64,000 bases of DNA from Lachnospiraceae bacterium (GTDB lineage Bacteria; Bacillota; Clostridia; Lachnospirales; Lachnospiraceae), in NCBI GenBank assembly GCA_902363835.1, contig CABJBM010000011.1, positions 62,001 through 126,000 of the forward strand, written 5' to 3'. This document shows, one piece after another, positions 17,425-34,655 of this stretch (position 1 is the stretch's first letter; each line of letters begins with the position of its first letter). Below the pieces are notes generated by a model. The model did not search any database and was not told the DNA's origin. It saw only the letters and a list, made by a program, of their open reading frames with translations. Made by a program: the position numbers and the translations under genes.

Positions 17425-18156
17425 CTAAATAATCGAAAGTGCCAGTTCCATCATCCTGGTAAAAGAATTCTGCCTGCCCTCAGCAGAAATTTCTTCCTCT
17501 TCAAACGGCGAATCTGAGATCGTTAAAATACACAATGCATCCGCTTTTCCATAAGCCGCATTGGCATAAAGTGCAGTGGACTCCATCTCACACGCCAGAA
17601 CCCCCATATCCGCCCATGATACCCCTGCTTTCGGAAGCTCCGGTTTATAAAATGCATCTGTGCACAGAATATTGCCCACATGATACGTCAGATCCATCTC
17701 TTCCGCGCTCTGTACTGCCTGACGTAATAATTTGTAACTGGCTGTACAGGAATAATCTCCCGGCAGCTGGTATGTTGCCAGATAATTGGTCTCCGTACAG
17801 CTGCCAATGGCAATGATGACATCCCGCAGTTTCACCTGAGGCTGCATCGCTCCGGCAGTTCCGATCCGAATTAAATTCTTCACACCGTAAAAATGAATCA
17901 GCTCATAAGAATAAATCCCCATTGACGGGCAGCCCATTCCGGTTCCCATCACCGATACCCGTTTACCCTTAAAGTAACCGGTATATCCCAGCATTCCTCT
18001 TGTATTATTAAACTGTGTTACATTTTCCAGGAAGTTTTCCGCAATAAACTTAGCACGCAGCGGATCACCTGGAAGCAGAATTGATTCTGCAATATCACCC
18101 GGCCTTGCATCAATATGAGGAGTTGGTGTGTGTTTCATAGCATCAATTTCATTCAT
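17425..18156 (-). CDS. deoD: Purine-nucleoside phosphorylase DeoD
   Basis: 243 residues, the usual length of the hexameric bacterial family. Visible marks: LLPGDPLRAKFIAENFL, the phosphate-binding GTGMGCPSMGIYSYEL, RIGTAGAMQ, the nucleoside site ACEMESTALYANA, and SDSPFEEEE with the catalytic aspartate that lets the enzyme accept 6-aminopurines. It cleaves purine (deoxy)nucleosides with phosphate to base plus (deoxy)ribose-1-phosphate. Last gene of the nucleoside operon; AAGGAAG precedes the ATG, 5 bases after the ribokinase stop. Confidence 0.93.
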   Translation of the reverse strand: MNEIDAMKHTPTPHIDARPGDIAESILLPGDPLRAKFIAENFLENVTQFNNTRGMLGYTGYFKGKRVSVMGTGMGCPSMGIYSYELIHFYGVKNLIRIGTAGAMQPQVKLRDVIIAIGSCTETNYLATYQLPGDYSCTASYKLLRQAVQSAEEMDLTYHVGNILCTDAFYKPELPKAGVSWADMGVLACEMESTALYANAAYGKADALCILTISDSPFEEEEISAEGRQNSFTRMMELALSII

Positions 18157-18160
18157 CCTT

Positions 18161-19072
18161 TTATCTTCCTTTCCTTTTGTTTTTTATCGTTTCTTCCACT
18201 TCTTTTCGTTCCGGGATTGATGGTGCCGCTCCTGGCCTGGTGACTGCAATGGCCGAAGCCACGGACGCCCGGTACAAAACATCCTCAATCTTTTCCTCTC
18301 TCATAATCCCGGAAATAAAGTATCCTGTATAAGTATCTCCTGCTGCCGTTGTATCAACTGCTTCCATACTTACCGCTTCCTGATGGTAAATCTGCTGTCC
18401 ATCCCAGTAAACAGATCCTTTTTTCCCAAGTGTCATGACAATTTTGGCATCAGGAAATTTCGCCGCCAGCTTTACCAGAACCGCTTCGTCACTTTCGTCC
18501 GATGATTCTGCTAAAGATGCTGCTTCCGCCTCGTTCACCAGAAAGTAATCCACCAGATTTAACGGCAGTTCCAAAACCTTATGATCCATTGGAGAAGGAT
18601 TCAAAACAATCGTCATTCCTATTTCATAGGCCCGGCTGATGATATATCCCAGTTCACTGATCTCATTTTGCAGAACAATAAAATCTCCGGCACAAAAACC
18701 AGACAGAACCTGTTCAACCTGCTCCTTACCAATCCTTTGATTTGCTCCGCCGAAAAGAATGATGCAGTTATCCCCCTCACTGTCATTCTGGATCATTGCA
18801 TGACCGGTCTGAACTTCATCGTGGACTGCAACACAGCCGGTATCCACCCCCGCCTGGTTTAAGACCTCCAGCAAAAATTCACCCTCATTCCCAATAGCTC
18901 CGGCATGATATACTTCTTCCCCTGCTCTGGCCAGGGCAATGGACTGATTTAACCCCTTCCCGCCGCTGAATACATTTAAATATTCTGAAGATATGGTTTC
19001 TCCTTTGCGCACAAAGTGTTCTACTTTATATACATAATCAATGTTCATAGAGCCAAAATTTAATAGTTTCAT
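18161..19072 (-). CDS. rbsK: Ribokinase (PfkB family)
   Basis: 303 residues. N-terminal PfkB signature with FSGGKGLNQSIALARAG near residue 36 and C-terminal catalytic signature DTTAAGDTYTGYF, whose Asp is the base; this DTTAAGD form is typical of true ribokinases. It would turn ribose released by the nucleoside hydrolases into ribose-5-phosphate. It lies 1 base after the hydrolase stop and before deoD. A second PfkB domain is found in the divergent LacI fusion. Confidence 0.9.
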   Translation of the reverse strand: MKLLNFGSMNIDYVYKVEHFVRKGETISSEYLNVFSGGKGLNQSIALARAGEEVYHAGAIGNEGEFLLEVLNQAGVDTGCVAVHDEVQTGHAMIQNDSEGDNCIILFGGANQRIGKEQVEQVLSGFCAGDFIVLQNEISELGYIISRAYEIGMTIVLNPSPMDHKVLELPLNLVDYFLVNEAEAASLAESSDESDEAVLVKLAAKFPDAKIVMTLGKKGSVYWDGQQIYHQEAVSMEAVDTTAAGDTYTGYFISGIMREEKIEDVLYRASVASAIAVTRPGAAPSIPERKEVEETIKNKRKGR

Positions 19073-19073
19073 A

Positions 19074-20042
19074 TTATACCCCGTAGCTTTTTATGGTTTG
19101 AATCAGCAGTTCTTTAAAACGCGCCTTATCAAACTCCATTGCAACAAGCACATTCTTTTCGCCGCTTTCTGCCGGATAGCAGACTTCCCTGCCAATATCC
19201 TCCTTTGGTGCCATTCCGATATAATCCCGGTAATCGCAAACAGTCATTCCTCTTGTGAACTCTCCCTTTGTCTCCACATCTACATGCATTGGCAGGGCGC
19301 AGGTAATAATCTCAGGATCAATCAGCCATGCTATGGTACAAGCATCACACAGTTGTGATTGCCGCCCCTGATTGACCGAATATTCCAGTAAATCTGCTGC
19401 CGCTGCCGCTACCCGTCCCGGCAGCGCCTTAAGCTGTTCCACTTCATCTATTGTCATGGAATTCTGACGGCATAAGTTAAGCCCAACCATGCGGATGGGA
19501 ATCCCGGATTCAAAAACAATTTTTGCTGCCTCCGGATCCGCAACTATATTAAATTCTGCACAGGCGTTATAATTTCCGTTTGTAACTGAGCCCCCCATAG
19601 AGATGACTTCCGGAATTTTATGCTTTAACTCCGGCTCCTTTAAAAGTGCCTGTGCTACATTGGTCAATGGCCCCAGCGTTACCAGTGTCATGTCTGTCTC
19701 ATCACGGAAAGCATTAATTAGCGCATCCACCGCATGTTCCTTTTGGGGCGCTCCTTCCAGTTCCTGCACCATGATATTCCCCAATCCGCTGCTGCCATGA
19801 ACATATTCCGCCCGCTCAGGTTTTGCAGACATCGGCATATCGTAGCCGGCATAAACGGGAATATCTCCATATCCCGCCAGCTCCGTCAAATATCTGGCAT
19901 TACGAAACGTATGTTCAAGTCCGGTATTTCCCCCAACCGCTGAAATCCCCACAACCGCCAGATGCTTCATTGCCAGCAGCAGTGCAAAACTGTCATCAAT
20001 TCCAGGATCACAGTCAATCCATACCTTTTTACTCATATCCAT
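19074..20042 (-). CDS. Inosine-uridine preferring nucleoside hydrolase
   Basis: 322 residues. The N-terminal calcium-binding aspartate cluster DCDPGIDDSFAL and the internal GSVTNGNYNACAEFNIVADPEAA are hallmarks of the IunH family, which hydrolyses ribonucleosides to ribose and base without phosphate. AAGGTG precedes the ATG; it follows the permease gene by a few bases. It works with the ABC importer upstream and the ribokinase downstream. It differs from the second hydrolase at 26340-27275, so the pair may split purine and pyrimidine substrates; that is inference. Confidence 0.92.
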   Translation of the reverse strand: MDMSKKVWIDCDPGIDDSFALLLAMKHLAVVGISAVGGNTGLEHTFRNARYLTELAGYGDIPVYAGYDMPMSAKPERAEYVHGSSGLGNIMVQELEGAPQKEHAVDALINAFRDETDMTLVTLGPLTNVAQALLKEPELKHKIPEVISMGGSVTNGNYNACAEFNIVADPEAAKIVFESGIPIRMVGLNLCRQNSMTIDEVEQLKALPGRVAAAAADLLEYSVNQGRQSQLCDACTIAWLIDPEIITCALPMHVDVETKGEFTRGMTVCDYRDYIGMAPKEDIGREVCYPAESGEKNVLVAMEFDKARFKELLIQTIKSYGV

Positions 20043-20045
20043 TGT

Positions 20046-20990
20046 TTACGCACCTTCTCTCTTCAGTCCTTTTTCTATCCGCTTCTTCTGATTGATCCGT
20101 ATCATATTAATCAATACAAGAGCAATGATTGTTGCTGCATAGGGAATCATTTCAATGAATTCCGTTGGGAAATTAGTTCCCTGACTCTTCAGCGTAGTTG
20201 CCAAGGCATCTGAAAAACCAAAGAAAACTGCTGCCACCGCGGTTCCGATGGGATTACTGCCGGCAATGTTCATGGCTGACAAGCCGATATATCCCCTGCC
20301 GTTTGTCATGTTTTTCATAAAGAAACTAACCCACCCCATGGACATGAATGCTCCGGCAAAACCGCAAAGCACTCCTGAAACCAGAAATGATATGTAACCA
20401 ATCTTTTTCACATTGATTCCTACGGATGATGCTGCCTGTGGGTTTTCCCCAACTGCCCGCATCCTGAGTCCCAGCCGGGTCCGGTACAGGAAAAACCATA
20501 CCAAATAAATGCTCAAGAACGCCAGATAAGTAAGCAGGTTATGTCCCGACAGTACCTGTCCCAAAAACGGGATCTTATCAATCAGGGGGATTACCACCGA
20601 AGGAATCGTATAAGCCTTAATCGCTGCCGATGTAGCCGCTTTTTCTCCGGTCAGCAAATACATAACAAATACGGTGCCGCCGCCGGCAACCAGGTTAAAT
20701 GCAATACAGGTCAGATAAAGATCTGTTTTTCCGGACAGATTGGACAATGCCAGTACCCCGCCGGCAAGCACGCCAAAGATAACCGCCCCCAGCAAACCAA
20801 TCCAGACATTCCCGGAAAAGCCGGCAAAAATAACGCCTGCCAGGGCTGCCGAAAGCATCATTCCTTCCAGTGCCATGTTAAGCATTCCGGCCTTCCGGTT
20901 AATGACCGCTGCCAATGCTACAAAAATCAGCGGTGTTGACAAACGCAGTACTGAAAACCCAAAATTTGCAAACCATTCTATTGTAAACAT
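20046..20990 (-). CDS. Nucleoside ABC transporter permease (NupC/BmpC-like)
   Basis: About 314 residues from the ATG at 20990; an upstream in-frame start would overlap the neighbour and lacks support. Eight or more hydrophobic helices of the BPD_transp_2 family, with NRKAGMLNMALEGMMLSAALAG near residue 33 and VGENPQAASSVGINVKKIGYISFLVSG as the coupling loop. Closest to the second permease of RbsC/BMP-type nucleoside importers. It pairs with the product of the next gene upstream. Confidence 0.88.
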   Translation of the reverse strand: MFTIEWFANFGFSVLRLSTPLIFVALAAVINRKAGMLNMALEGMMLSAALAGVIFAGFSGNVWIGLLGAVIFGVLAGGVLALSNLSGKTDLYLTCIAFNLVAGGGTVFVMYLLTGEKAATSAAIKAYTIPSVVIPLIDKIPFLGQVLSGHNLLTYLAFLSIYLVWFFLYRTRLGLRMRAVGENPQAASSVGINVKKIGYISFLVSGVLCGFAGAFMSMGWVSFFMKNMTNGRGYIGLSAMNIAGSNPIGTAVAAVFFGFSDALATTLKSQGTNFPTEFIEMIPYAATIIALVLINMIRINQKKRIEKGLKREGA

Positions 20991-21009
20991 ATGCGTTTCT
21001 GCATGGACC

Positions 21010-22155
21010 TTACTCCACGCTCTCCTTCCCGGCTTCTGCTGCATTGTCTGCCAAAATTTCCTTTGATTCTTTTTCCCGGTCCTTTTTCATGTCTTCCTGG
21101 GCCGCTTTATAGATCAGTTTCTTCTTATACCTTCCCATGAATTCCTCAGCAGCTACCAGAAGAATAACAATCCCCTGGATAACAGTAATGAATTCAATGG
21201 GAATATCACCTTTGGAGTTTACAACATCCGCACCGATCCTGATATATGCCAGCAGAATTGCCGCTACCGGGACCAGAATCGGATTCCTTCTCGCCAGAAC
21301 GGCTACCATCAGGCCATCAAAGCCATGCTGGGTACTGACGACCCATTTGTAACGGTCATAATTGCCCAGGATCTCACACGTACCGCCCATACCGGCAAAA
21401 ACACCGCCAACTAACTGAGCCAGAATAATTGTCCCGGTCATGTTGATACCGCTTGCTTTGGCAAAGTTCGGATTACTTCCAACAACCCGCATCTTATATC
21501 CGAAAATGGTCTTATAAAATAAAACTCCAACAAAGGCCACAGCAATCAATGCCACAAAAAATCCCGACTGAACCCGGAACTTGCCAAAGATCATAGGAAG
21601 CTTTGCCGAATCCGGAATCATATAGGATCCCAGGGAACCAATTGACGGATCCCGCATAAAATACTTCAGCACCCAGATGGATAAAAATGTCAGAATGCTG
21701 TTAAGCATCAGGGAAACCACCACAATATTGGCCTTAAACTTAACATCCAGCCAGGCCGGAATAATGGAAACCAGAAACCCCACTACCGCACCAACTGTCA
21801 GCAGGATCAAAAGCATAACCAATGTCGGCAGACCTGCCCCTCCTAATGAAATAGCAGTCAAAGAAACAATGCACCCTGAAAACATAAATATGCCTTCACC
21901 GGAGAGATTAAACTTATTCACTGCATACATAAAACAGAAACACAATCCGGTGAATGTAAACGGAATCGCCAGGTTAATGATGCTTCCGGCTCTCCGCACG
22001 GAAGAAAACGGGCCTAACACAAATTGCTGAATAATATAGACCGGATCATCGCTGATGGCAAATAATGTGACCAGCGCAATTCCGTAAGCAATGCCGATGG
22101 CAACCAGGATGCGCACCAATTCGACTGTTGTTTCTATTCGCCTTGTTTTACTCAT
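21010..22155 (-). CDS. Nucleoside ABC transporter permease (NupB/BmpB-like)
   Basis: 381 residues, BPD_transp_2 family with about nine helices and the coupling loop VGSNPNFAKASGINMTGTIILAQLVGG. The C-terminus carries an extra charged cytoplasmic tail of about 45 residues rich in Lys and Glu. It overlaps the ATPase gene by 4 bases and is the first of the two permeases, consistent with a heterodimeric channel as in other BMP-dependent nucleoside importers. Confidence 0.9.
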   Translation of the reverse strand: MSKTRRIETTVELVRILVAIGIAYGIALVTLFAISDDPVYIIQQFVLGPFSSVRRAGSIINLAIPFTFTGLCFCFMYAVNKFNLSGEGIFMFSGCIVSLTAISLGGAGLPTLVMLLILLTVGAVVGFLVSIIPAWLDVKFKANIVVVSLMLNSILTFLSIWVLKYFMRDPSIGSLGSYMIPDSAKLPMIFGKFRVQSGFFVALIAVAFVGVLFYKTIFGYKMRVVGSNPNFAKASGINMTGTIILAQLVGGVFAGMGGTCEILGNYDRYKWVVSTQHGFDGLMVAVLARRNPILVPVAAILLAYIRIGADVVNSKGDIPIEFITVIQGIVILLVAAEEFMGRYKKKLIYKAAQEDMKKDREKESKEILADNAAEAGKESVE

Positions 22156-23702
22156 AGCACAGCCTCCATTTCTTTTGCTGTCATCGTCTTAATACCCAGC
22201 ATATATTCCCCTAATTCATCTTCTGAAACCAGGTTCGCCTGCTTAAATGCTGCTACAATCTTCCCTTTTCGCATAACCATCAGCCGGTCGGAACACTCCA
22301 GCACTTCGTTCAAATCAGCTGAGATCAACAGGGAAGCCGTCTTTTCTTCCCTTGATTTACGGACAATTGTCTTGCGGATCATTTCCGCTGCGCCAACGTC
22401 AATTCCCCGGGTCGGCTGATTGGCCAGAATAAAATTGCTGCCGGAAGTGAACTCTCTGGCCACCACCACCTTCTGGATATTACCACCGGAAAGCATACGT
22501 ACCGGCTGGTTTCTATCATCGCAGGCAATTTCAAAATCTTTAATGCACTGATCTACAACCTGGTCAATATATTTTCTGTTAATAAACGGCCCCTTCCGGT
22601 ATTGAGGCTGAAAATATCGGTCTGAGATGATATTATCCCGGATTGACATATCTCCGGCACAGCCAAAATCCATTCTGTCTTCCGGAATAAATGCCAGCCC
22701 CAGCTGCCGGATCTGGTGAACGGTTTTTCCTGATATGCTGGTTCCGTTAATAGATACTTCACCGGAAGAGAAGATCCCAAGTCCTGATAATACATCAGAA
22801 AGTTCACTCTGGCCATTGCCTTCTACACCGGCAATGCCTACCACTTCCCCCTCCCGAATATCAAGAGATACACCATCCAGTACGGTTTTTCCCATTTCGT
22901 TGATCTTAGTCAGATCCTTAATATGTACAACAACCTTGCCGGGCTTTGGCTGATCTTTGTCAATTTTTAGCACCACATCCCGGCCAACCATCAGCTTTGA
23001 GATATCGGATTGGCTCATATCCTCCAATTCATAACTGCCCAGGCAAAAACCATGGCGCAGGACCGTAACACGGCTGCAGATCCGTTTTACTTCCTCCAGC
23101 TTATGGGAAATAAAGATAATCGAATGACCGCTGTCCTTTAACAGAATCAGCTGTTCAAACAATTCATCTGTCTCCTGAGGCGTCAGGACTGCCGTCGGCT
23201 CATCCAAAATGATAATTTTCGCTCCCCGGATCAATACTTTCATAATCTCAACCTTTTGCATCTGACCAACCGAAAGATCCATTACTTTCATTTTGGGATC
23301 AATGTTAAAATTATACTTTTCTGCCACTTCTCTGGTCATTTCCACCGCTTTGTTATAATCAAACGTTCCTTTTTTCATAGGTTCGATTCCCAAAGCCACA
23401 TTCTCCGCTACAGTCAGTGACGGAACCAGCATAAAATGCTGATGTACCATTCCAATGCCTTTATCAATGGCATCCAGTGTATTTTGAATATGAACCTCCT
23501 GCTCTTGTACCAGAACACGTCCGGACTGGGCATTTTCCAATCCAAAGAGAACTTTCATCAACGTCGTTTTTCCTGCTCCGTTTTCCCCTACCAGAGCCAG
23601 AATTTCCCCTTCATTCAGCCAAAAGGTAATGCCTTTATTGGCAACAAATCCATTACTGTAAATCTTGGTAATATTCTCCATTCTCAAAACTTCACCAGAC
23701 AT
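22152..23702 (-). CDS. Nucleoside ABC transporter ATP-binding protein (two cassettes)
   Basis: 516 residues with two ABC domains, as in RbsA/NupA. The first has a complete Walker A GENGAGKTT, signature LSVGQMQKVEI and Walker B IIILDEPTAVLTP. The second has a degenerate Walker A (GVEGNGQSEL) and LSGGNIQKVVVAREF, the usual asymmetry of this group. It drives uptake through the two permeases encoded downstream. An AGGAGGAAGATATG region gives a strong translation start. Confidence 0.92.
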   Translation of the reverse strand: MSGEVLRMENITKIYSNGFVANKGITFWLNEGEILALVGENGAGKTTLMKVLFGLENAQSGRVLVQEQEVHIQNTLDAIDKGIGMVHQHFMLVPSLTVAENVALGIEPMKKGTFDYNKAVEMTREVAEKYNFNIDPKMKVMDLSVGQMQKVEIMKVLIRGAKIIILDEPTAVLTPQETDELFEQLILLKDSGHSIIFISHKLEEVKRICSRVTVLRHGFCLGSYELEDMSQSDISKLMVGRDVVLKIDKDQPKPGKVVVHIKDLTKINEMGKTVLDGVSLDIREGEVVGIAGVEGNGQSELSDVLSGLGIFSSGEVSINGTSISGKTVHQIRQLGLAFIPEDRMDFGCAGDMSIRDNIISDRYFQPQYRKGPFINRKYIDQVVDQCIKDFEIACDDRNQPVRMLSGGNIQKVVVAREFTSGSNFILANQPTRGIDVGAAEMIRKTIVRKSREEKTASLLISADLNEVLECSDRLMVMRKGKIVAAFKQANLVSEDELGEYMLGIKTMTAKEMEAVL

Positions 23703-23768: not shown

Positions 23769-24923
23769 TTAAGGTGCCACACTGTCAAGCATTGCCTGAT
23801 ACTCGGCCTCATCAGCAAAATCATAGTAAGATTTTACTGTTTTTTCGCCGCTGATGATCTTAGCCTGTGCCTCTTCCATCTTCTGACGCACTTCTTCAGG
23901 AACGTTTTCTTTGAAGAAATCATTATCTACATATCCAACCGAACTTTCTGCCAGACCCAGACGGTTTACTTTCTTCCAGACATCTTTTCCAGCCTCTACA
24001 TCATGGAAAAACGATACAAAAGAATCACCCACATTTTTCAGCATGGAGGTTAAAATCACATCGGCCAGTTCCGGATTCTCAGAATTTTTATAATACTGAT
24101 ACTGGTCGGAATCCACACCAATTGCCCAGGTATTCAGCTCTTTACAGGCTTCAAACAAACCGCCGCCTGCTCCGCCGGCAACCTGATAGAATACATCAGC
24201 TTTTTTATCTCTTGCCTGAGACAGACAAAGCTCTTTCATCTTGGCCGGATCCGTCCAGGAACCAACTGCCGCCTTAACAACCTTGCACTCCGGATCGTAA
24301 TCCTGAACACCATTTACAAAACCGGTGACAAAGTCAGCAATAACCGGATTATCCATTCCCACATTAACTGCCACAACTTTTGATTTAGACATACCGGCGG
24401 CCAGCTGGCCTACCATGTAAGAGCCCTCATTCTGAGCATAGAAAATCAGAGCCATGTTTTCCGGTATCTCAGATTCATCCATGGAATCATCAAAACATAT
24501 AAACTTAACATCAGGATATTCCTTTGCCAGGCGGATCAAAATATCACGATACGTGGAGGATGCCACAATATATTCATAACCTTCGTCAATGGTATCCAGC
24601 ATGGCATCTTCCCATTTGTCCGCTTTTGTCTCATCACCGGCTTCAACAGTCTTGCAGTCCCAACCTTCCTTACGCAGTATTTTCATTCCCTCTTCACCGG
24701 AATCGTTAAAAGACTTGTCCCCCAGATTTCCCACAATATAGGCAATCCGTCCTTTTTCACCGTCCTTGGCAGCCGGGGCCCCGCTTTCGGCTTTTGTTTC
24801 CTTGCTGCCGGTATCACCTGCACCGGAAGATCCTGTTGTTCCTCCAGAACCACAGGCTGTAAGACCTGCTGCCATTGCCATGGCTATCACGACCGCAATT
24901 ACTTTCTTTACACTTTTTTTCAT
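23769..24923 (-). CDS. BMP family nucleoside-binding lipoprotein (PnrA-like)
   Basis: 384 residues. Signal peptide MKKSVKKVIAVVIAMAMAAG with lipobox LTAC (lipidated C24), a Gly/Ser/Thr/Lys linker, then the basic membrane protein fold beginning RIAYIVGNLGDKSFNDSGEEG, which contains the conserved phenylalanine-asparagine-aspartate segment of PnrA-type purine nucleoside receptors. It delivers nucleosides to the ABC permeases encoded downstream. Start ATG follows AGAGGAGGTCTCAT. About 40 bases separate it from the MATE gene upstream, so it is probably in the same transcript. Confidence 0.92.
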   Translation of the reverse strand: MKKSVKKVIAVVIAMAMAAGLTACGSGGTTGSSGAGDTGSKETKAESGAPAAKDGEKGRIAYIVGNLGDKSFNDSGEEGMKILRKEGWDCKTVEAGDETKADKWEDAMLDTIDEGYEYIVASSTYRDILIRLAKEYPDVKFICFDDSMDESEIPENMALIFYAQNEGSYMVGQLAAGMSKSKVVAVNVGMDNPVIADFVTGFVNGVQDYDPECKVVKAAVGSWTDPAKMKELCLSQARDKKADVFYQVAGGAGGGLFEACKELNTWAIGVDSDQYQYYKNSENPELADVILTSMLKNVGDSFVSFFHDVEAGKDVWKKVNRLGLAESSVGYVDNDFFKENVPEEVRQKMEEAQAKIISGEKTVKSYYDFADEAEYQAMLDSVAP

Positions 24924-24963: not shown

Positions 24964-26343
24964 TCAGCCCGATGTCAGATTGCGGACCCATTTCATCGAC
25001 CGAATCCGCCATACTCCCACCAGTGCTTCTAATACAATATTAAATTTAATGATTCCGATCACCACCGCAGGCGGCCAGGCAAAAACAAAAGCACCTAATG
25101 ATGCAAGCGGTATGGTTACCAGCCACATGGTAAAGATATCCGTGATCAGCCCGGTCTTTCCATCTCCCCCGGCCCGCAAGGTAGCAATGATTCCGGTCAT
25201 CTCCACACCGGCAAAGGGCCAGATCAGGGCCAGAATCGCCATAAATTGTATGGCAAAAGCCCGGGTCTCATCAGTCAGCCGGTAAAGCTTTGTAAAGGGT
25301 ATCCCAAATAGAATCGTGATCAGCCCCATCAGCGTTCCTCCAACAAGTCCAATAACCAGAACACTGTAAGCCTGCTTTTTAATCTCCGCCTTCTTCTGCC
25401 CCGAACCGATAGCTTTACCAATCGCAACACTGCAGGCCTGTAAAATTCCGTTCATAACGCAGGCAACCAACTGGTAGAACGTATTGGCAACATTATAGCC
25501 GCCAACTACGCTTATACTCATCTGCCCGGTGATTGCACTTCCTGCTGTTGTTCCCGTTGACCAGATCAGCTCATGGACAACAATCGGAATACCAATCAGG
25601 TAAAAATTTCTGCTTAACCGTTTGTCCGCTTTCAGTAAATCTCTTACTTTCAGCTGAATTTTCTTTTCTTTTTTAAATACAAATACACCCAGAATAACAA
25701 ACTCCACCAATCTGGCAATCACAGCTCCCAGGGCTGCTCCCTGAATCCCCATCTGTGGAAGTCCGAACTTACCAAAAATCAGACAATAATCCAGTAAAAT
25801 GTTAATGGGATAAGAAATCACATTGGCAATAAATGATATCTTAACCTGTTCAATTCCCCGGCAGCAAGCAAACATCATGGTACTCACACCGCACGGAAGA
25901 TACATCCAGGCCGCAATCCGCAGATAAGAAGCCCCCAGTTGGATAATGGCCGGGTCACTGCTGTAGATCCTCATAAATATCCAGGGAAATGTCAGTACCA
26001 GACATGAAATCACCGTTCCAAAAACAGCCACTGCCCGGATACCTGTTGCAAAAAGTATTCTTATCTCTTCCTTGCCCTGACGCCCCCAATATTGAGCAAT
26101 CAGGACGCAGCATCCTGCCGAAAAACCGCTGCATAAAGTATAGAAAATAAAAAATATCTGCTGTGCCTGGGAAACTGCTGACATTTGCACCTGGTCAATC
26201 CGACCCAGCATAATGCTGTCCGCCGTATCAACACTAACCCGCAAAAACTGCTGCAGGATGATGGGTACCCCCAGCATCAGAATATTGGAATAAAACCGTG
26301 CCTCATTAACAATGGGAAAGCTTTTGCCCTTTACCAGGCTCAT
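24964..26343 (-). CDS. MATE family efflux transporter
   Basis: About 459 residues, twelve hydrophobic helices in two similar halves (FYSNILMLGVPIILQQFLR and FYLIGIPIVVHELIW), typical of MATE/NorM-DinF transporters, which export cationic or aromatic compounds against Na+ or H+. The ATG at 26343 overlaps the nucleoside hydrolase stop by 4 bases (ATGA), so it is strictly coupled to it. Placement inside a nucleoside import and cleavage operon suggests it could export the released nucleobases or toxic nucleoside analogues; that is inference, as no MATE base exporter is known to me. Confidence 0.85.
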   Translation of the reverse strand: MSLVKGKSFPIVNEARFYSNILMLGVPIILQQFLRVSVDTADSIMLGRIDQVQMSAVSQAQQIFFIFYTLCSGFSAGCCVLIAQYWGRQGKEEIRILFATGIRAVAVFGTVISCLVLTFPWIFMRIYSSDPAIIQLGASYLRIAAWMYLPCGVSTMMFACCRGIEQVKISFIANVISYPINILLDYCLIFGKFGLPQMGIQGAALGAVIARLVEFVILGVFVFKKEKKIQLKVRDLLKADKRLSRNFYLIGIPIVVHELIWSTGTTAGSAITGQMSISVVGGYNVANTFYQLVACVMNGILQACSVAIGKAIGSGQKKAEIKKQAYSVLVIGLVGGTLMGLITILFGIPFTKLYRLTDETRAFAIQFMAILALIWPFAGVEMTGIIATLRAGGDGKTGLITDIFTMWLVTIPLASLGAFVFAWPPAVVIGIIKFNIVLEALVGVWRIRSMKWVRNLTSG

Positions 26344-27275
26344 AGTATGCGGCTGTTGCCGATGCAGCCAATCAACCATTCCTTAAATAAATCAACGCGG
26401 ATATCCATTGCCACCTTCACATTAGGCTGCCGGTCCAGGGTATTTCTCAAATCCACTGCTGTATGACCTACCGTATAAGAATCCAGACACTCAACATCCA
26501 CAAAGTAATCATTGCATGACAGGCACTGCGGACACAACGCAGCGGCTAAGGCCAGGGCATCGTGCATCACCGCATCCTCTCCGCCTTTTTCATGCCGCCT
26601 GAACATGTAATCCAGAATATCGGCTGTCAGTACAGCAGCTTTTGTTCCCATGTTTCTTAAAATTTCTTCATCCTGGTGGTTCAGGATTGCCAATTCCGTC
26701 ACATCTAAGCCCACCATTGTACAGGGAATCCCGGATGCCAGAACCAGCCTGGCCGCTACCGGGTCCACCCAGATATTAAATTCAGCCGAGGTAGAAACAT
26801 TCCCGCCTTTTACCGCCCCGCCCATGAACCAGATATGCTTGATTTTTTCTGCAATGTCCGGATAGAGGGAAAGAGCAATGGCAATATTGGTCATCGGGCC
26901 AATGACAAGCAGTTCCAACTCACCTTTTAGTTCGTCTGCTTTCCGGCGTATCACCTCAATCGCATTTTCTTCTGCAAAATTACTGGTCACGGCAGTTGGC
27001 AGCACAATATCACCAAGTCCTGTCTGGCCGTGAGTATTACCATAATGCAGCGGCCTTAGAAACAGAGGCTTCTCAGCTCCCCTGGCAACCATAATATCAG
27101 CGCCAAGATACTCCATCAGATTCAGATTATTCTGTGAGGTATACTGGTGCGATACATTTCCATTTACCGAAGTAATAGCCGCCAGTTCGATCTCCGGACT
27201 GTATAAAGCAGCTATAATCGCAATTGCATCATCAGTACCCGTATCACAGTCAATAATAAATGTTCTCTTTGCCAT
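26340..27275 (-). CDS. Nucleoside hydrolase (IunH family), second copy
   Basis: About 311 residues from the ATG at 27275 with GAGGT upstream; a longer frame exists but runs through the promoter region. N-terminal metal cluster DCDTGTDDAIAI replaces the Pro of the usual DCDPGxDD by Thr. Internal GGAVKGGNVSTSAEFNIWVDPVAA and C-terminal TVGHTAVDLRNT follow the family. It is the first gene of the long nucleoside operon, just after the promoter and candidate operator. Substrate differs perhaps from the downstream hydrolase. Confidence 0.9.
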   Translation of the reverse strand: MAKRTFIIDCDTGTDDAIAIIAALYSPEIELAAITSVNGNVSHQYTSQNNLNLMEYLGADIMVARGAEKPLFLRPLHYGNTHGQTGLGDIVLPTAVTSNFAEENAIEVIRRKADELKGELELLVIGPMTNIAIALSLYPDIAEKIKHIWFMGGAVKGGNVSTSAEFNIWVDPVAARLVLASGIPCTMVGLDVTELAILNHQDEEILRNMGTKAAVLTADILDYMFRRHEKGGEDAVMHDALALAAALCPQCLSCNDYFVDVECLDSYTVGHTAVDLRNTLDRQPNVKVAMDIRVDLFKEWLIGCIGNSRIL

Positions 27276-27325
27276 TGCCGTCAACCTCGCTTTCTTCTTA
27301 TGCCTTTGCTCTGTTTTAATAAGAT

Positions 27326-27344
27326 AACTGTTTCCGAAAGTGTT
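27326..27344. promoter_or_regulatory. Candidate LacI-type operator
   Basis: Minus strand AACACTTTCGGAAACAGTT is an imperfect palindrome with 7 of 9 base pairs symmetric about the central G. It lies between the nucleoside-operon -10 and the hydrolase start, about +5 to +23, where repressor binding would block transcription. The divergent gene encodes a LacI-type regulator, which is the likely binder. Confidence 0.45.
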
Positions 27345-27355
27345 TATTTTATTAA

Positions 27356-27383
27356 ATAATACCACTTTTTTCCAATTTGTCAA
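27356..27383 (-). promoter_or_regulatory. SigA-type promoter of the nucleoside operon
   Basis: On the minus strand TTGACA (27383-27378) and TATTAT (27361-27356) are 16 bases apart. It would drive the hydrolase-MATE-BMP-ABC-hydrolase-ribokinase-deoD operon of about 10 kb; no further terminator or promoter of similar quality is seen inside it. Confidence 0.65.
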
Positions 27384-27467
27384 TTATTATTATGCATTTT
27401 AAATAAAAATAAGTTTTAGGAAAGCTGTTTATTATGTATTCTTTTACATTTCACTTTATCTTCGCCG

Positions 27468-27496
27468 TTGACAAATATATCTTTCTGTATCATAAT
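27468..27496 (+). promoter_or_regulatory. SigA-type promoter of the LacI-PfkB gene
   Basis: TTGACA (27468-27473) and CATAAT (27491-27496) with 17-base spacing. The start would be near 27503, about 24 bases upstream of the ATG at 27527. Confidence 0.65.
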
Positions 27497-27526: not shown

Positions 27527-29446
27527 ATGACAATCAAAGAAATTGCCCAGTTAGCGGGTGTATCTATATCAACCGTATCAAAAATCGTAAACGGCAAGGA
27601 TGACAGCATTAACCCAAAGACCCGAAAGCGTGTTCTGGAAATTGTAAAAGAGTATAACTATACGCCTTATGCCAGTGTCAAGCTCGTTTCTGAGGCCAAG
27701 ACTTTTGTATTGGGGGTATTGCTTAATTCCTTCACCAGATCAAGCCTGTTTTTAAATGGTGCCATTGCTGTTGCCCAAAAAAACGGCTATGGACTTTTGG
27801 TCTATGACAGTCTGGGTTCATTGGAAACCGAACTGAAAAACATCACTACAATCTGCAAAAGTCAGGTAGACGGCGTAATCTGGGAACCGGTGAGTAACGA
27901 AAGCAAAGAATACGAGCATTATTTTAAAAAATATAAAATTGAAGTCTGCTGCATTAACTCTCCCTTTGACCCGAATCATTATTTTATCGATTTTTCCCAA
28001 ATCAGCTATGAGGCGACCAGGCTCCTCCTTTCCTATGGCCATACAAAAGTAGGGTGCCTGATCAGACGCGGCAGCATCCGTTCAGAATTAGCCTTAGAAG
28101 GCTTCAAAAAGTGTCTTCTGGAACATGGGATTCCTTTTCGGGATAACATGGTTCTTCCTGAGGAAAATGATGAATGGTACAATCAGATCTTTGCACATTT
28201 ACTGACCGGCATTATCAGCACCCATTTCACCTCCGCACAATTACTGGTTGAGGATTTAGAAAAAAAAAGGCTGCAAATGCCATATAACCTTTCACTGATC
28301 AGCTTAAGAGATGATCTGCGTGGGAATGCCCAGTCCTCGAAAATTTCCAGCATCCGAATTCCTAATTATGAACTTGGTTCTTTTGTTTGTGAACGGCTCA
28401 TTGAAAAATGTGAAAAGAGGCAATTCAATACAGAAAGATTCCAAACCGCTTATCCGCTGGAAAATACAAACAGCCTGGATGTTCCTTACTTTTCCCAGAC
28501 CAAGCAGATCGTGGTAGTTGGAAGTATTAACATGGATATAATCCTGAATGTAACCGAACTGCCCCAGCCGGGACAGGTAGCCAGTACAAATACCAGCTTT
28601 ACCATCCCTGGCGGAAAAGGTGCCAATCAGGCTGTTGCTGTGGCCAAACTGGGGCATCGGGTGTCCCTGATCGGAAAAGTAGGTAATGATTACGACTCCG
28701 CTCTCGTCTATTCAATTATAGAAGAAAATCATGTAAACACCCTGGGAATTCTGCGCGCCCCCCAGGCCGAGACCGGCAAGGCGTATATCCACCTTCAGGA
28801 CAACGGGGAAAGCACGATCACACTTTTAAACGGTGCCAATGAAACCCTGTGCCCGGAAGAAATCCTGATGCATAAGGATCTCTTCCAAAACGCCAGTTAC
28901 TGCTTATTACAAACGGAAATCCCGGAGAACGCGGTTGAAGCGGCCGCCCGCCTGGCTCATGAATGCGGTGTAAAAAACATCCTGAAACCAGCAGTGATGA
29001 AGCGGCTGCTCCCGTCATTAATGAAGTACATAGATATCTTTGTACCGAATAAAGCAGAAGCAGAGCTGCTGTGCCCGGAAGAAACCACAATTGAGGGGAA
29101 AGCTGAAGCATTTATCAGGTATGGTGCCAAGTCTGTTATTATTACCCTGGGACATTCCGGATGTTATATCAAGGATCCTGCTTTTACCGGTTACCTGCCG
29201 GCGATCCATTTTTCAACAATTGATACCACCGGGGCCGCCGATGCCTTCATCGGAGCCTTGGCCGCTTACTTAACCGATGGATATCCCATTGAACATGCTG
29301 CACGAATCGCTACCTATGCCGCCGGCTTCAGCGTTGCCAGACAAGGGGTCATACCGGCACTGATCGACCGCAATTCACTGGAAGCTTACATCAAAAAAGT
29401 GGAACCCCAGATTATTCAGACCAGAAACAGGAAGGAAATTACATGA
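27527..29446 (+). CDS. LacI-type regulator fused to a PfkB (ribokinase-like) sugar kinase
   Basis: 639 residues from the ATG at 27527, which follows a CGGAGAG site; earlier in-frame ATGs lie in the promoter. Residues 1-55 are a LacI helix-turn-helix (TIKEIAQLAGVSISTVSKIVNG). Residues about 60-320 are a periplasmic-binding-type effector domain. From about residue 328 a complete PfkB kinase follows: VVVGSINMDIILNV, IPGGKGANQAVAVAKLG, and the catalytic DTTGAADAF with Asp near residue 572 (GAAD in place of GAGD). Both halves look intact. It probably represses the divergent nucleoside operon and phosphorylates ribose or a nucleoside, which could couple kinase substrate level to DNA binding. It overlaps the M20 hydrolase gene by 4 bases. 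Confidence 0.9.
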   Translation: MTIKEIAQLAGVSISTVSKIVNGKDDSINPKTRKRVLEIVKEYNYTPYASVKLVSEAKTFVLGVLLNSFTRSSLFLNGAIAVAQKNGYGLLVYDSLGSLETELKNITTICKSQVDGVIWEPVSNESKEYEHYFKKYKIEVCCINSPFDPNHYFIDFSQISYEATRLLLSYGHTKVGCLIRRGSIRSELALEGFKKCLLEHGIPFRDNMVLPEENDEWYNQIFAHLLTGIISTHFTSAQLLVEDLEKKRLQMPYNLSLISLRDDLRGNAQSSKISSIRIPNYELGSFVCERLIEKCEKRQFNTERFQTAYPLENTNSLDVPYFSQTKQIVVVGSINMDIILNVTELPQPGQVASTNTSFTIPGGKGANQAVAVAKLGHRVSLIGKVGNDYDSALVYSIIEENHVNTLGILRAPQAETGKAYIHLQDNGESTITLLNGANETLCPEEILMHKDLFQNASYCLLQTEIPENAVEAAARLAHECGVKNILKPAVMKRLLPSLMKYIDIFVPNKAEAELLCPEETTIEGKAEAFIRYGAKSVIITLGHSGCYIKDPAFTGYLPAIHFSTIDTTGAADAFIGALAAYLTDGYPIEHAARIATYAAGFSVARQGVIPALIDRNSLEAYIKKVEPQIIQTRNRKEIT

Positions 29447-30732
29447 AAATAAAAAAGCAGATGCTGACCGATTCCTTGGAAAAACAAAAACAAGAGCTAA
29501 AAGAGCTGGGCCGGACACTATTTGCCTGTCCGGAAGTGGGATTCCGGGAAGAAAAGACAGCCGCTCATCTCCTGTCATTTTTTCAAAGAAATGGTATCTC
29601 CTGTCAGGGAGATCAAGCCCTGACAGGTGTACGCGCGGACATTGGAGAGCGAAATGGCTCCGGTTATCATATTGCCCTGGTTGCCGATATGGATGCTCTT
29701 TATGCCGGCAGCGGTGATAAAAAACAGGCGATTCACTCCTGCGGCCACAGCATCCAGGTTGCTGATATGGCCTTTTCCATGAAGCTTATAAAAGAGAGCG
29801 GACTGCTGGATGAAACCGGAGGCAGCATTACCTTTATCGCCACCCCGGCCGAGGAATTTATTGATCTGGAATATAGGGAAGCCCTTGTACAGGCCGGAAA
29901 AGTTCGTTTTTTCTCAGGAAAACAGAATCTAATTGCCGATGGTTTCTTCGATGACCTTGACTGTATATTATCGGCTCATGTAAATAGTGAAGAACACACC
30001 CTTTTTGATATTGGCAGCAGCCTCACCGGTTTTACAAAAAAACGGATTATTTTCACCGGACAGGCCGCACATTCCGGAGCGCTGGCTCACCAGGGGCGCA
30101 ATGCCATGCATGGAGCGGCGTTATTTATCAATGCATTATCATTTTTAAAGGAACAGTTTCCCCCGGAAAAAGGCATTCACATTGCTCCGGTTATTACCAA
30201 TTGCAATGGCAGTGTCAATGCCATTCCGGACCAGGCTGTTTTAGAAACCTATGTCCGGGCCAATTCCCTAAGCACCCTGCTTGAAGCATGCCAGTCATTA
30301 GATCGCTGTGCCAATCATTGCGCCCTTGCATTAAATCTAAAAAGTTCAATCGAAAATCAGACGGGATATATGCCTCTTCAACAGTCTGAGCCGCTGCTTC
30401 AAGTTGTTTTCCAAAATATGCTCACCCTTTGTCCGGCCGAAAGGATTCTTAAAAATACGGTTTCCGGAGCCTCCGGTGACATTGGTGATTTAAGCTGCCT
30501 CATTCCTTCCGTACAATTCGGTTTTTCCGGTATTGAGGGGCAGATCCACAGTGCCAATTTCAAGATCCGGGATGAAGAAAACGTCTACACAAATGTGGTC
30601 CGGGTGGTTTTAGGAACCATTTACGATCTGCTGACCAGAAAAGAGCTGCAGATAAAATATGATGATTACGATATTCGTAAAAAAGCATACTTAAAGGACT
30701 GGCTGGGAATTTCCCAGAACAATATTACCTGA
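29443..30732 (+). CDS. M20 family amidohydrolase
   Basis: 429 residues of the M20 amidohydrolase/peptidase group (HipO/AbgA-like). Metal-binding marks are VADMDALY near residue 80 and HSCGHSIQVADMA near residue 99, and the acidic PAEEF near residue 135. The dimerisation domain follows (ITFTGQAAHSGA-like IIFTGQAAHSGALAHQGRNA). The start overlaps the LacI-PfkB stop (ATGA), so the two are coupled. Substrates of the family are N-acyl amino acids, carbamoyl or ureido compounds; within this locus a product of base breakdown is conceivable. That is inference. Confidence 0.85.
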   Translation: MKIKKQMLTDSLEKQKQELKELGRTLFACPEVGFREEKTAAHLLSFFQRNGISCQGDQALTGVRADIGERNGSGYHIALVADMDALYAGSGDKKQAIHSCGHSIQVADMAFSMKLIKESGLLDETGGSITFIATPAEEFIDLEYREALVQAGKVRFFSGKQNLIADGFFDDLDCILSAHVNSEEHTLFDIGSSLTGFTKKRIIFTGQAAHSGALAHQGRNAMHGAALFINALSFLKEQFPPEKGIHIAPVITNCNGSVNAIPDQAVLETYVRANSLSTLLEACQSLDRCANHCALALNLKSSIENQTGYMPLQQSEPLLQVVFQNMLTLCPAERILKNTVSGASGDIGDLSCLIPSVQFGFSGIEGQIHSANFKIRDEENVYTNVVRVVLGTIYDLLTRKELQIKYDDYDIRKKAYLKDWLGISQNNIT

Positions 30733-30788: not shown

Positions 30789-33627
<2,839 letters not shown>

Positions 33628-33681
33628 TTTTCCTTCCTCTCTTATAATCTGATGAATTTTTATAGTTTTTTGCTGATTGTG

Positions 33682-33710
33682 ATTATACTGTTTATCAGGT
33701 TTCTTGTCAT
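33682..33710 (-). promoter_or_regulatory. Promoter of the PTS-GH1 operon
   Basis: On the minus strand ATGACA (33710-33705) and TATAAT (33687-33682) with 17-base spacing. No LicT-type antiterminator RNA site was recognised, in keeping with control by the adjacent RpiR protein. Confidence 0.55.
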
Positions 33711-33721
33711 CAATTCTAAGG

Positions 33722-33763
33722 CGTAAAAAAACAAGTGACGGCTTTTCTCACTTGTTTTTTTTA
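33722..33763. terminator. Intrinsic terminator after the RpiR gene
   Basis: GTAAAAAAACAAGTGA pairs with TCACTTGTTTTTTTTAC around a 9-base loop, giving U-tracts on both strands. It separates the RpiR gene from the downstream PTS operon promoter. Confidence 0.8.
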
Positions 33764-33796
33764 CGTAACAATATGTTTTTTTAACTTGCAGATTGC

Positions 33797-34546
33797 TTAA
33801 TTTAAAGTATGATCCGATCCTTCAGAAGTATACCGGTACAGCTTTTTCCCCAGCCGTTCCACAATGCTGACAGCAGGCATCTGAGTAGTAATATCATAAA
33901 CCTTCAGCCGCATATAGGTCACGTAATATGCAATGTTATAGTCAGATAATTTTGCCACAGTGCAGTTTTCCGTATTGGTCACACTGAAAATCTGGCAATT
34001 TTGTTCCTTAAAACGGATCACATGACCAATGGTATCATTGGACTCTCCTGAGACGGAAAATACAATAACCAGGGCATTTTCAAAAAACTTGCTTTCTGTT
34101 GGATAATGGGGTTCGTCAATGTAAAGACAGAACTTTCCCATACTGGAAAAATACCTTGCCCCATATTTTGCCACAATCCCAGACATGCCGCTGCCTACAA
34201 AAATCACGCGGTTTGCACGGACAATAACTTCCGTCATCATTTCCAGCTTTTTCTCAAATTCTTCCGAAGTAGTTTTCTTTAAAAAATCAATGACTTCCGT
34301 TACATCATCCGCCGCATGTAATTCTTTTCCCTTATCAAAATGCTGTTTTAACTTTATCTTAAACTCAGCATAGCCATTACAATCCATTTTCTTGCAAAAA
34401 CGCAGCACCGTAGAAGTGGAAACATGGGCTTCCTGAGCCAATTCCCGAATTCTCATGTACTTCACTTTATCATAGTTTTTCGTCACATAATGATACACTT
34501 CCATTTCCAGATCATTCAGTGATTTAACCTGCTCCACACGAAACAT
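33797..34546 (-). CDS. RpiR/MurR family transcriptional regulator
   Basis: About 249 residues from the ATG at 34546, which follows GAGGGGGAACAG. Helix-turn-helix (HTH_6) in residues 1-75 (IRELAQEAHVSTSTVLRFCKKMDCNGYAEFK) and a SIS sugar-phosphate binding domain from about residue 105 (RVIFVGSGMSGIVAKYGARYF; VIVFSVSGESNDT). SIS ligands are phosphosugars, so it likely senses the phosphorylated beta-glucoside or glucose-6-phosphate and controls the adjacent PTS-GH1 operon. Confidence 0.88.
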   Translation of the reverse strand: MFRVEQVKSLNDLEMEVYHYVTKNYDKVKYMRIRELAQEAHVSTSTVLRFCKKMDCNGYAEFKIKLKQHFDKGKELHAADDVTEVIDFLKKTTSEEFEKKLEMMTEVIVRANRVIFVGSGMSGIVAKYGARYFSSMGKFCLYIDEPHYPTESKFFENALVIVFSVSGESNDTIGHVIRFKEQNCQIFSVTNTENCTVAKLSDYNIAYYVTYMRLKVYDITTQMPAVSIVERLGKKLYRYTSEGSDHTLN

Positions 34547-34655
34547 CCCTGTTCCCCCTCCTATGAAATGAAACCACCTCTCCTTTCCCATTGAGAATAC
34601 TTTAAAAGAGAGGCTGGAATAAATGGATGTCACTTCTATATGCTATAAAATATAT

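Follow-up and report, generated by a model that had tools for sequence, protein, structure and literature searches.

A LacI-type repressor fused to a ribokinase domain in Lachnospiraceae, with the kinase domain as its possible sensor

Introduction

What happens to a sugar kinase when it is joined to a DNA-binding repressor: does it remain an enzyme, or does it become a sensor? This question is raised by a gene in a stretch of 64,000 nucleotides (hereafter the window) from a Lachnospiraceae bacterium (contig CABJBM010000011.1, positions 62,001–126,000). The gene is located at 27527..29446 on the plus strand and encodes a protein of 639 amino acids (aa), in which a LacI-type repressor is followed by a ribokinase domain. 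A preliminary description regarded all domains as intact, and speculated that the regulator phosphorylates its own probable ligand, ribose or a nucleoside, and thereby resets its signal. Here, slightly better than even chances are given to another function: the protein would be a LacI-family repressor that controls ribose/nucleoside catabolism and senses its ligand with the ribokinase domain instead of the LacI pocket.

Structure of the fusion protein

The fusion gene is one open frame from the ATG at 27527 to the stop at 29446. According to Pfam, the protein contains a LacI helix-turn-helix (PF00356) at residues 2–47 (E 1.6e-15), Peripla_BP_3 at residues 166–301 (E 2e-8), and PfkB at residues 326–611 (E 4.9e-57), each above the cut-off. 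All three domains expected in the preliminary description are thus found. The six Pfam families matched at E 0.001 are only of the LacI, HTH_3, Peripla_BP, PfkB and Phos_pyr_kin types. LacI, Peripla_BP_3 and PfkB are also matched by all 37 members of alignment A1.

About 5.8 billion proteins were searched, which gave 7995 scored candidates and 1272 matches at E ≤ 1e-3. The best 120 of these 1272 matches, which are the listed relatives, all have LacI and PfkB domains and are 627–663 aa in length. Full-length matches, from residue 1 to residues 625–635, are present in 12 of 12 genomes that we chose from 79 fetched loci. Two of the 13 fusion matches in these genomes contain a single stop, and in both it is the normal terminator of the gene. 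A sequencing frameshift or a missed stop had been named as what could separate the two parts. It is ruled out, because the reading frame is uninterrupted and full-length homologues are common in other genomes. The single chain of about 639 residues is therefore confirmed by one open frame, three Pfam modules and full-length relatives.

On the plus strand, the helix-turn-helix (27530..27667) includes the family-conserved columns VSISTVSKI. It is followed by an atypical hinge at residues 48–57 (27668..27697), where Tyr is found in place of Asn50 and the predicted local distance difference test score is low (residues 48–57 or 48–54). The LacI-type core covers residues 59–322 (27701..28492), and the ribokinase-fold domain covers residues 326–625 (28502..29401).

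Loss of the LacI pocket

In LacI, Arg197, Asn247 and Asp275 bind the inducer, and Asn50 is located in the hinge helix. The LacI halves of 195 fusions were compared with 37 standalone LacI proteins, the nearest full-length relatives (P0292 was excluded). The residues are numbered according to P0291, taken as near the numbering of LacI proper. The 195 fusions remained after 5 of 200 sequences had been removed as redundant in their last 300 residues; they are related sequences and do not represent independent events.

The Arg197-type residue is seen in none of the 195 fusions, in contrast with 36 of the 37 standalone proteins. Asp275 is kept in 2 fusions (36 of 37 standalone proteins) and Asn247 in 7 (30 of 37), and 186 of the 195 fusions retain none of the three pocket residues. 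The Asp275 position is Arg or Lys in 156 fusions, the Asn247 position is His in 149, and the Arg197 position is hydrophobic in most. In the window, A189, H233 and R261 stand for R, N and D. At the hinge, Tyr replaces Asn50 in all 195 fusions, while Asn is found in 33 of the 37 standalone proteins. In contrast with the pocket and the hinge, the recognition helix VSISTVSKI is strongly conserved among the fusions.

The core has the periplasmic-binding-type fold and matches CcpA, RbsR and PurR. CcpA is the top relative of the LacI half in the PDB by sequence and is among the top ones by fold. The standalone relative P0291 likewise has CcpA as its best match, which makes this likeness unspecific. 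The fusion is a LacI-family chain by its helix-turn-helix and fold, and its pocket is non-canonical.

Altered residues in the kinase half

The kinase halves of the 195 fusions were compared with 157 standalone PfkB kinases, of which 59 are encoded at the same loci and 98 are from the database. The 59 include only complete neighbouring kinases of 280–380 aa. Furthermore, 22 short matches with fusion-like scores (P0122–P0143) were kept out of the 98, both in the counts and in the tree below.

The C-terminal half has the PfkB/ribokinase fold, and the residues on the ribose side and the nucleotide side are preserved, as is the catalytic base. In the numbering of E. coli RbsK, D16, G41, G42, N46, E190 and D255 are kept in 195 of 195 fusions, and K43, E143 and N187 in 194. 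The catalytic Asp reported in the motif DTTGAADAF is indeed present; it corresponds to D572 and is conserved in all 195. The ribose-binding N14 is kept in 172 fusions and is His in the other 23 (e.g., L051, L064 and P0071), a subgroup that perhaps has a different ligand.

Two positions are different. Where E. coli has N166, an outer residue of the metal site, every one of the 195 fusions has Lys. None of the 157 standalone kinases does; they have Asn (124) or Asp (33). At the position of G254, the third residue of the anion-hole motif (A/G)AGD, the fusions have Ala (174), Ser (8), Cys (3) or Gly (10). Gly is invariable in the 157 standalone kinases, including the 59 complete neighbouring ones. 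Parsimony places Ala as the ancestral state of the fusions at this position, with seven changes. In the window these residues are Lys487 (28985..28987) and Ala571, which precedes the catalytic Asp572 (29237..29242); neither the (G/A)AGD anion hole nor Asn or Asp at position 166 is found. The protein also scores 267.7 bits against TIGR02152, below the equivalog cut-off of 299.65 bits.

Possible consequences of these replacements can be seen from the fructokinase of Vibrio cholerae (VcFRK). According to PMC6240065, the backbone amides of its GAGD motif face the gamma-phosphate, and D172, together with two other residues, holds the water molecules that surround the divalent cation. The pattern D-P-N-x-R, seen as DPNLR and DPNIR in two standalone kinases, begins at position 166. 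From the spacing to N174 and R176, position 166 would be equivalent to D172 of VcFRK, and Lys would bring a positive charge into the metal site. We infer that phosphoryl transfer has been slowed or lost and that ligand binding has been kept. The ribokinase domain is thus probably exapted and catalytically weakened. The earlier view that all domains are intact does not hold, considering A571, K487, and the missing pocket residues and hinge Asn of the LacI half.

Genes around the fusion

The best 79 of 443 matching loci and the window, 80 loci in total, were compared over a span of nine genes. Neighbouring genes were clustered, and each cluster was labelled via one representative. Among the 80 loci, a PfkB kinase is seen in 56, a nucleoside hydrolase in 38, an ADP-ribosylglycohydrolase in 23 and a BMP-type protein in 19; at least one of the latter three is present in 59. 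Among the 69 loci with at least five upstream genes, 56 have a hydrolase, ADP-ribosylglycohydrolase or BMP gene, 55 have a PfkB kinase, and 47 have both. The upstream neighbour is divergent from the fusion in 63 of 75 loci.

Chance adjacency to nucleoside genes is ruled out by the frequency of PF01156 hydrolases. The 12 genomes (~62.9 Mb) contain 34 of them, or ~0.01 expected per 20 kb, and one is present at 37 of the above 69 loci. In the same genomes there are 42 matches to TIGR02152 at E 1e-40, including the 13 fusions. As read from the coordinates, one of the 29 remaining matches lies within 10 kb for 10 of these fusions.

Because of these neighbours, the fusion most likely regulates genes by which ribosyl compounds are taken up and cleaved, and an enzyme able to phosphorylate the sugar is usually encoded close by. 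The link with ribose or nucleosides proposed in the preliminary description is thus supported by the gene context.

In the window, the order from the fusion is a nucleoside hydrolase, a MATE efflux gene, a BMP-type transporter, a second hydrolase, a standalone kinase and deoD. The divergent nucleoside hydrolase (PF01156) is at 26340..27275 on the minus strand, and its start, the ATG at 27275, was chosen from the sequence. The MATE gene is at 24964–26379, inside the nucleoside cluster; its own cluster is present in 12 of 80 loci. On the minus strand, the BMP-type ATP-binding cassette transporter consists of a binding protein (23769–24923, PF02608), an ATPase (22152–23702, PF00005) and two permeases (21010–22155 and 20046–21044, PF02653). 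Also on the minus strand are the second nucleoside hydrolase (19074–20042), the standalone ribokinase-like kinase with a canonical DTTAAGDTY (18161–19072), and the DeoD purine nucleoside phosphorylase (17425–18156).

On the other side, an M20-type amidohydrolase gene (29443–30732) overlaps the stop of the fusion with its start (ATGA) and may be co-transcribed with it. This cluster is seen in 3 of 80 loci. The region 30789–34633, with a glycosyl hydrolase of family 1, phosphotransferase system EIIB/EIIC and an RpiR-type regulator, is a separate cluster of beta-glucoside type.

A second context is also seen among the loci (e.g., L009, L024 and L066), with ADP-ribosylglycohydrolase-like genes (23 of 80) and an SBP_bac_1 binding protein of a sugar ATP-binding cassette transporter (22 of 80), each counted separately. 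It suggests the uptake of some ribosyl compound.

Operator and promoters

Upstream regions of 78 fusions were searched for a shared site; the other two of the 80 were too short and were dropped. The pattern GAAAANNTTTTC is found exactly in 22 of the 78 regions, while any such pattern reaches at most 5 in five shuffled sets. After refinement, the motif is a palindrome of 24 bp, tTTTAgGAAAATATTTTCcTAAAa. The first scans were compared with mononucleotide shuffles and were repeated by leave-one-out with first-order Markov shuffles. In the latter, 70 of the 78 regions are above the 95th percentile of the shuffles and 64 are above the 99th. As a control, 12 of 218 other intergenic regions from the same loci reach that 99th-percentile score, with a matrix trained on the same 78 regions minus the window. 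These facts indicate a likely palindromic operator, as predicted from sequence, in the divergent promoter region.

With a position weight matrix trained without the window, the highest score in the 64 kb (13.8) belongs to site 1, TTTTAGGAAAGCTGTTTATTATGT, at 27414..27437. Site 2, at 27317..27340, is 97 bp from site 1 and scores 9.0, the fifth in the window. Hits 2–4, at 131, 34690 and 50080, have scores of 10.4 to 9.1 and are probably due to chance. The palindrome 27326–27344, earlier regarded as the operator, overlaps site 2 and does lie in the divergent promoter region. It is the weaker site, and as the main operator it is replaced by 27414–27437, which has the higher matrix score. Two sites scoring above 9 are seen in 25 of the 78 regions, with spacings of 38–39, 72–74, 84–88 or 97–100 bp, and 178 bp in one case.

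A consensus scan finds the promoter-like sequence TTGACA-16-TATTAT at 27356..27383 on the minus strand for the divergent nucleoside operon, with site 2 just downstream, and TTGACA-17-CATAAT at 27468..27496 on the plus strand for the fusion gene. Such matches are common by chance (4, compared with a mean of 2.2 in shuffles). If the promoters are right, each -35 box would have site 1 at ~30 bp on its upstream side, and site 2 would lie just past the nucleoside start. This two-site layout would suit repression with looping.

Function of the kinase domain

Since the LacI pocket was lost while the substrate residues of the kinase were kept, the kinase domain has probably become the ligand sensor. 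The fusion would bind the two operators around the divergent promoter and repress the nucleoside-uptake/hydrolase operon. Ribose, or a close ribosyl product, and ATP or ADP would bind the ribokinase domain; the closure of its lid would be transmitted to the LacI core and would weaken DNA binding. Phosphoryl transfer would be slow or absent owing to Lys at the metal site and the missing anion-hole Gly, and for this reason the ligand would be read rather than consumed. Catabolism would be carried out by the separate normal kinase. In addition, the kinase domain may serve for tetramer formation and aid looping.

The original idea of a bifunctional protein, a repressor with a working ribokinase that senses ribose, phosphorylates it and clears its own signal, is considered unlikely. 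Lys occupies the metal site in all fusions and the anion-hole Gly is lost in 185 of 195, and neither is seen in the standalone kinases; in addition, the loci usually contain a nearby gene for a normal standalone kinase. Because of the lost pocket, the replaced kinase residues and this nearby kinase, a sensor fits better than a self-clearing regulator. Residual kinase activity with a self-resetting signal may still exist, because the catalytic Asp and the substrate residues are kept.

Several observations weigh against a relocated sensor. The retained catalytic Asp and substrate residues would also be seen in a working enzyme. About four lineages, with 10 of the 195 fusions, have regained Gly at position 254, so the substitution at 254 alone need not inactivate the kinase; Lys166 is present in all 10. 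By analogy with the contact between R176 and the gamma-phosphate in VcFRK, Lys166 could itself serve catalysis. The standalone kinase of the window (239.2 bits) is below the TIGR02152 cut-off as well, and the cut-off thus does not set the fusion apart. The apparent loss of the pocket is judged from a comparison with 37 standalone relatives. None of the four expected neighbours is seen in 5 of the 69 loci (L014, L017, L018, L019 and L027). The PF01156 hydrolase is absent genome-wide from 4 of 12 fusion-bearing genomes and is therefore not obligatory, and in 8 of the 78 regions upstream of the fusions no site is convincing as an operator (p > 0.05). Finally, a few of the short matches (e.g., P0130, P0134 and P0138) start close to the beginning of the kinase and could be genuine kinase-only derivatives.

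Distinctly less probable than the bifunctional protein is an enzyme-coupled sensor, in which the kinase produces ribose 5-phosphate, an anionic product that is read by the remodelled pocket of the LacI half. The change to Arg or Lys at the Asp275 position (156 of 195) and to His at the Asn247 position (149 of 195) is a shift to positive charge, and the substrate residues of the kinase are retained. It requires an active kinase, though, despite the replaced residues of the metal site and the anion hole, and the Arg197-type position is hydrophobic in most fusions. A related speculation, that of a single-chain flux sensor, is very doubtful: ribose would be converted slowly to ribose 5-phosphate, and the pocket, rebuilt by His and Arg/Lys at the Asn and Asp positions, would read the product. 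If true, the repressor would answer the pathway flux and not the sugar concentration. Just as doubtful is a kinase serving only as a module for oligomerisation or stability, with the LacI core binding another molecule or a protein, as CcpA binds HPr-Ser46-P. The position of CcpA among the best relatives of the LacI half, by sequence and by fold, would agree with this, as would the two-operator arrangement in 25 of 78 regions. The likeness to CcpA is, however, shared with P0291, and neither the near-invariant substrate residues in 195 sequences nor the ribosyl-catabolic neighbours would be expected from a scaffold.

Comparison with known regulators and kinases

The fusion resembles RbsR (PDB 9ny7/9ny8) and CcpA in its LacI helix-turn-helix, periplasmic-binding-type core, predicted palindromic operator and probable control of sugar use. 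Unlike them, it lacks the canonical pocket Arg, Asn and Asp and the hinge Asn, and has an additional ribokinase domain of 300 residues. With ribokinase RbsK (PDB 1rk2) it shares the fold and the positions of ribose binding, NxxE and the catalytic Asp; it differs by Lys at N166, Ala, Ser or Cys at G254, and the attached DNA-binding repressor.

The ROK family is known to include repressors that arose from sugar kinases (PMC12696579). In comparison with the ROK repressors NagC and Mlc, the fusion has a kinase of a different family and a complete LacI core between the helix-turn-helix and the kinase. ROK membership is ruled out, as the ROK domain is not among its six Pfam families at E 0.001. NadR likewise combines an N-terminal helix-turn-helix repressor and an ATP-binding nucleoside-type kinase in one chain (PMC12421817). 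NadR differs in its nicotinamide mononucleotide (NMN) adenylyltransferase domain, its active kinase and its NAD pathway. NadR membership is ruled out by Pfam, which does not match the set of helix-turn-helix, NMN adenylyltransferase and ribosylnicotinamide kinase. In its combination of folds, its Lys/Ala signature and the loss of its LacI pocket, the fusion is distinct from both ROK repressors and NadR. No description of LacI-ribokinase fusions was found in the open-access literature of PMC, a search in which subscription journals are mostly not covered.

If the sensor has moved, these proteins would represent a second route, beside ROK, from a sugar kinase to a transcription sensor. Here, the kinase would have been grafted on a complete LacI repressor, which afterwards lost its own pocket. 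The lineages with regained Gly254 would be a natural test of such a change from enzyme to sensor. Many proteins now called ribokinase, PfkB kinase or LacI regulator would need re-annotation. The analysis also gives a predicted operator and predicted target genes for the scavenging of nucleosides and ADP-ribosyl compounds in Lachnospiraceae and relatives.

Distribution and origin

The organism-named records of the fusion are often from Lachnospiraceae or other Clostridia. Outside Clostridia, single loci (L049, L059 and L069) are seen in a Synergistaceae bin and spirochaetes. In a sample of 200 genomes from the family to which one of the 12 genomes belongs, 15 have a match to the fusion at E 1e-70; the match in one of them (G131) covers residues 309–638 only. 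Public annotation of these proteins is inconsistent, as ribokinase, PfkB family kinase or LacI regulator.

In the FastTree phylogeny of the kinase halves, the 195 fusions form a single clade with support of 0.97, which contains none of the 157 standalone kinases. When the short matches P0122–P0143 are added back, 22 of 22 are placed inside the fusion clade (support 0.84). All 22 have Lys at position 166, and 21 have Ala or Ser at position 254, with a gap in the remaining one. The LacI half is incomplete or missing in these short matches; most of them begin mid-domain and look like fragments.

Besides, an apparent second, broken fusion is seen in genome G161 (C2:108657–110553), where residues 1–203 and 192–632 match in separate frames. 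This copy is ~10 kb from the intact fusion of locus L001, the genome having been equated by coordinates. Eight cysteines (C110, C177, C196, C288, C295, C459, C516 and C546) are kept in the fusion family and not in its standalone relatives; for example, C459 is present in 194 of 195 fusions and C546 in 188.
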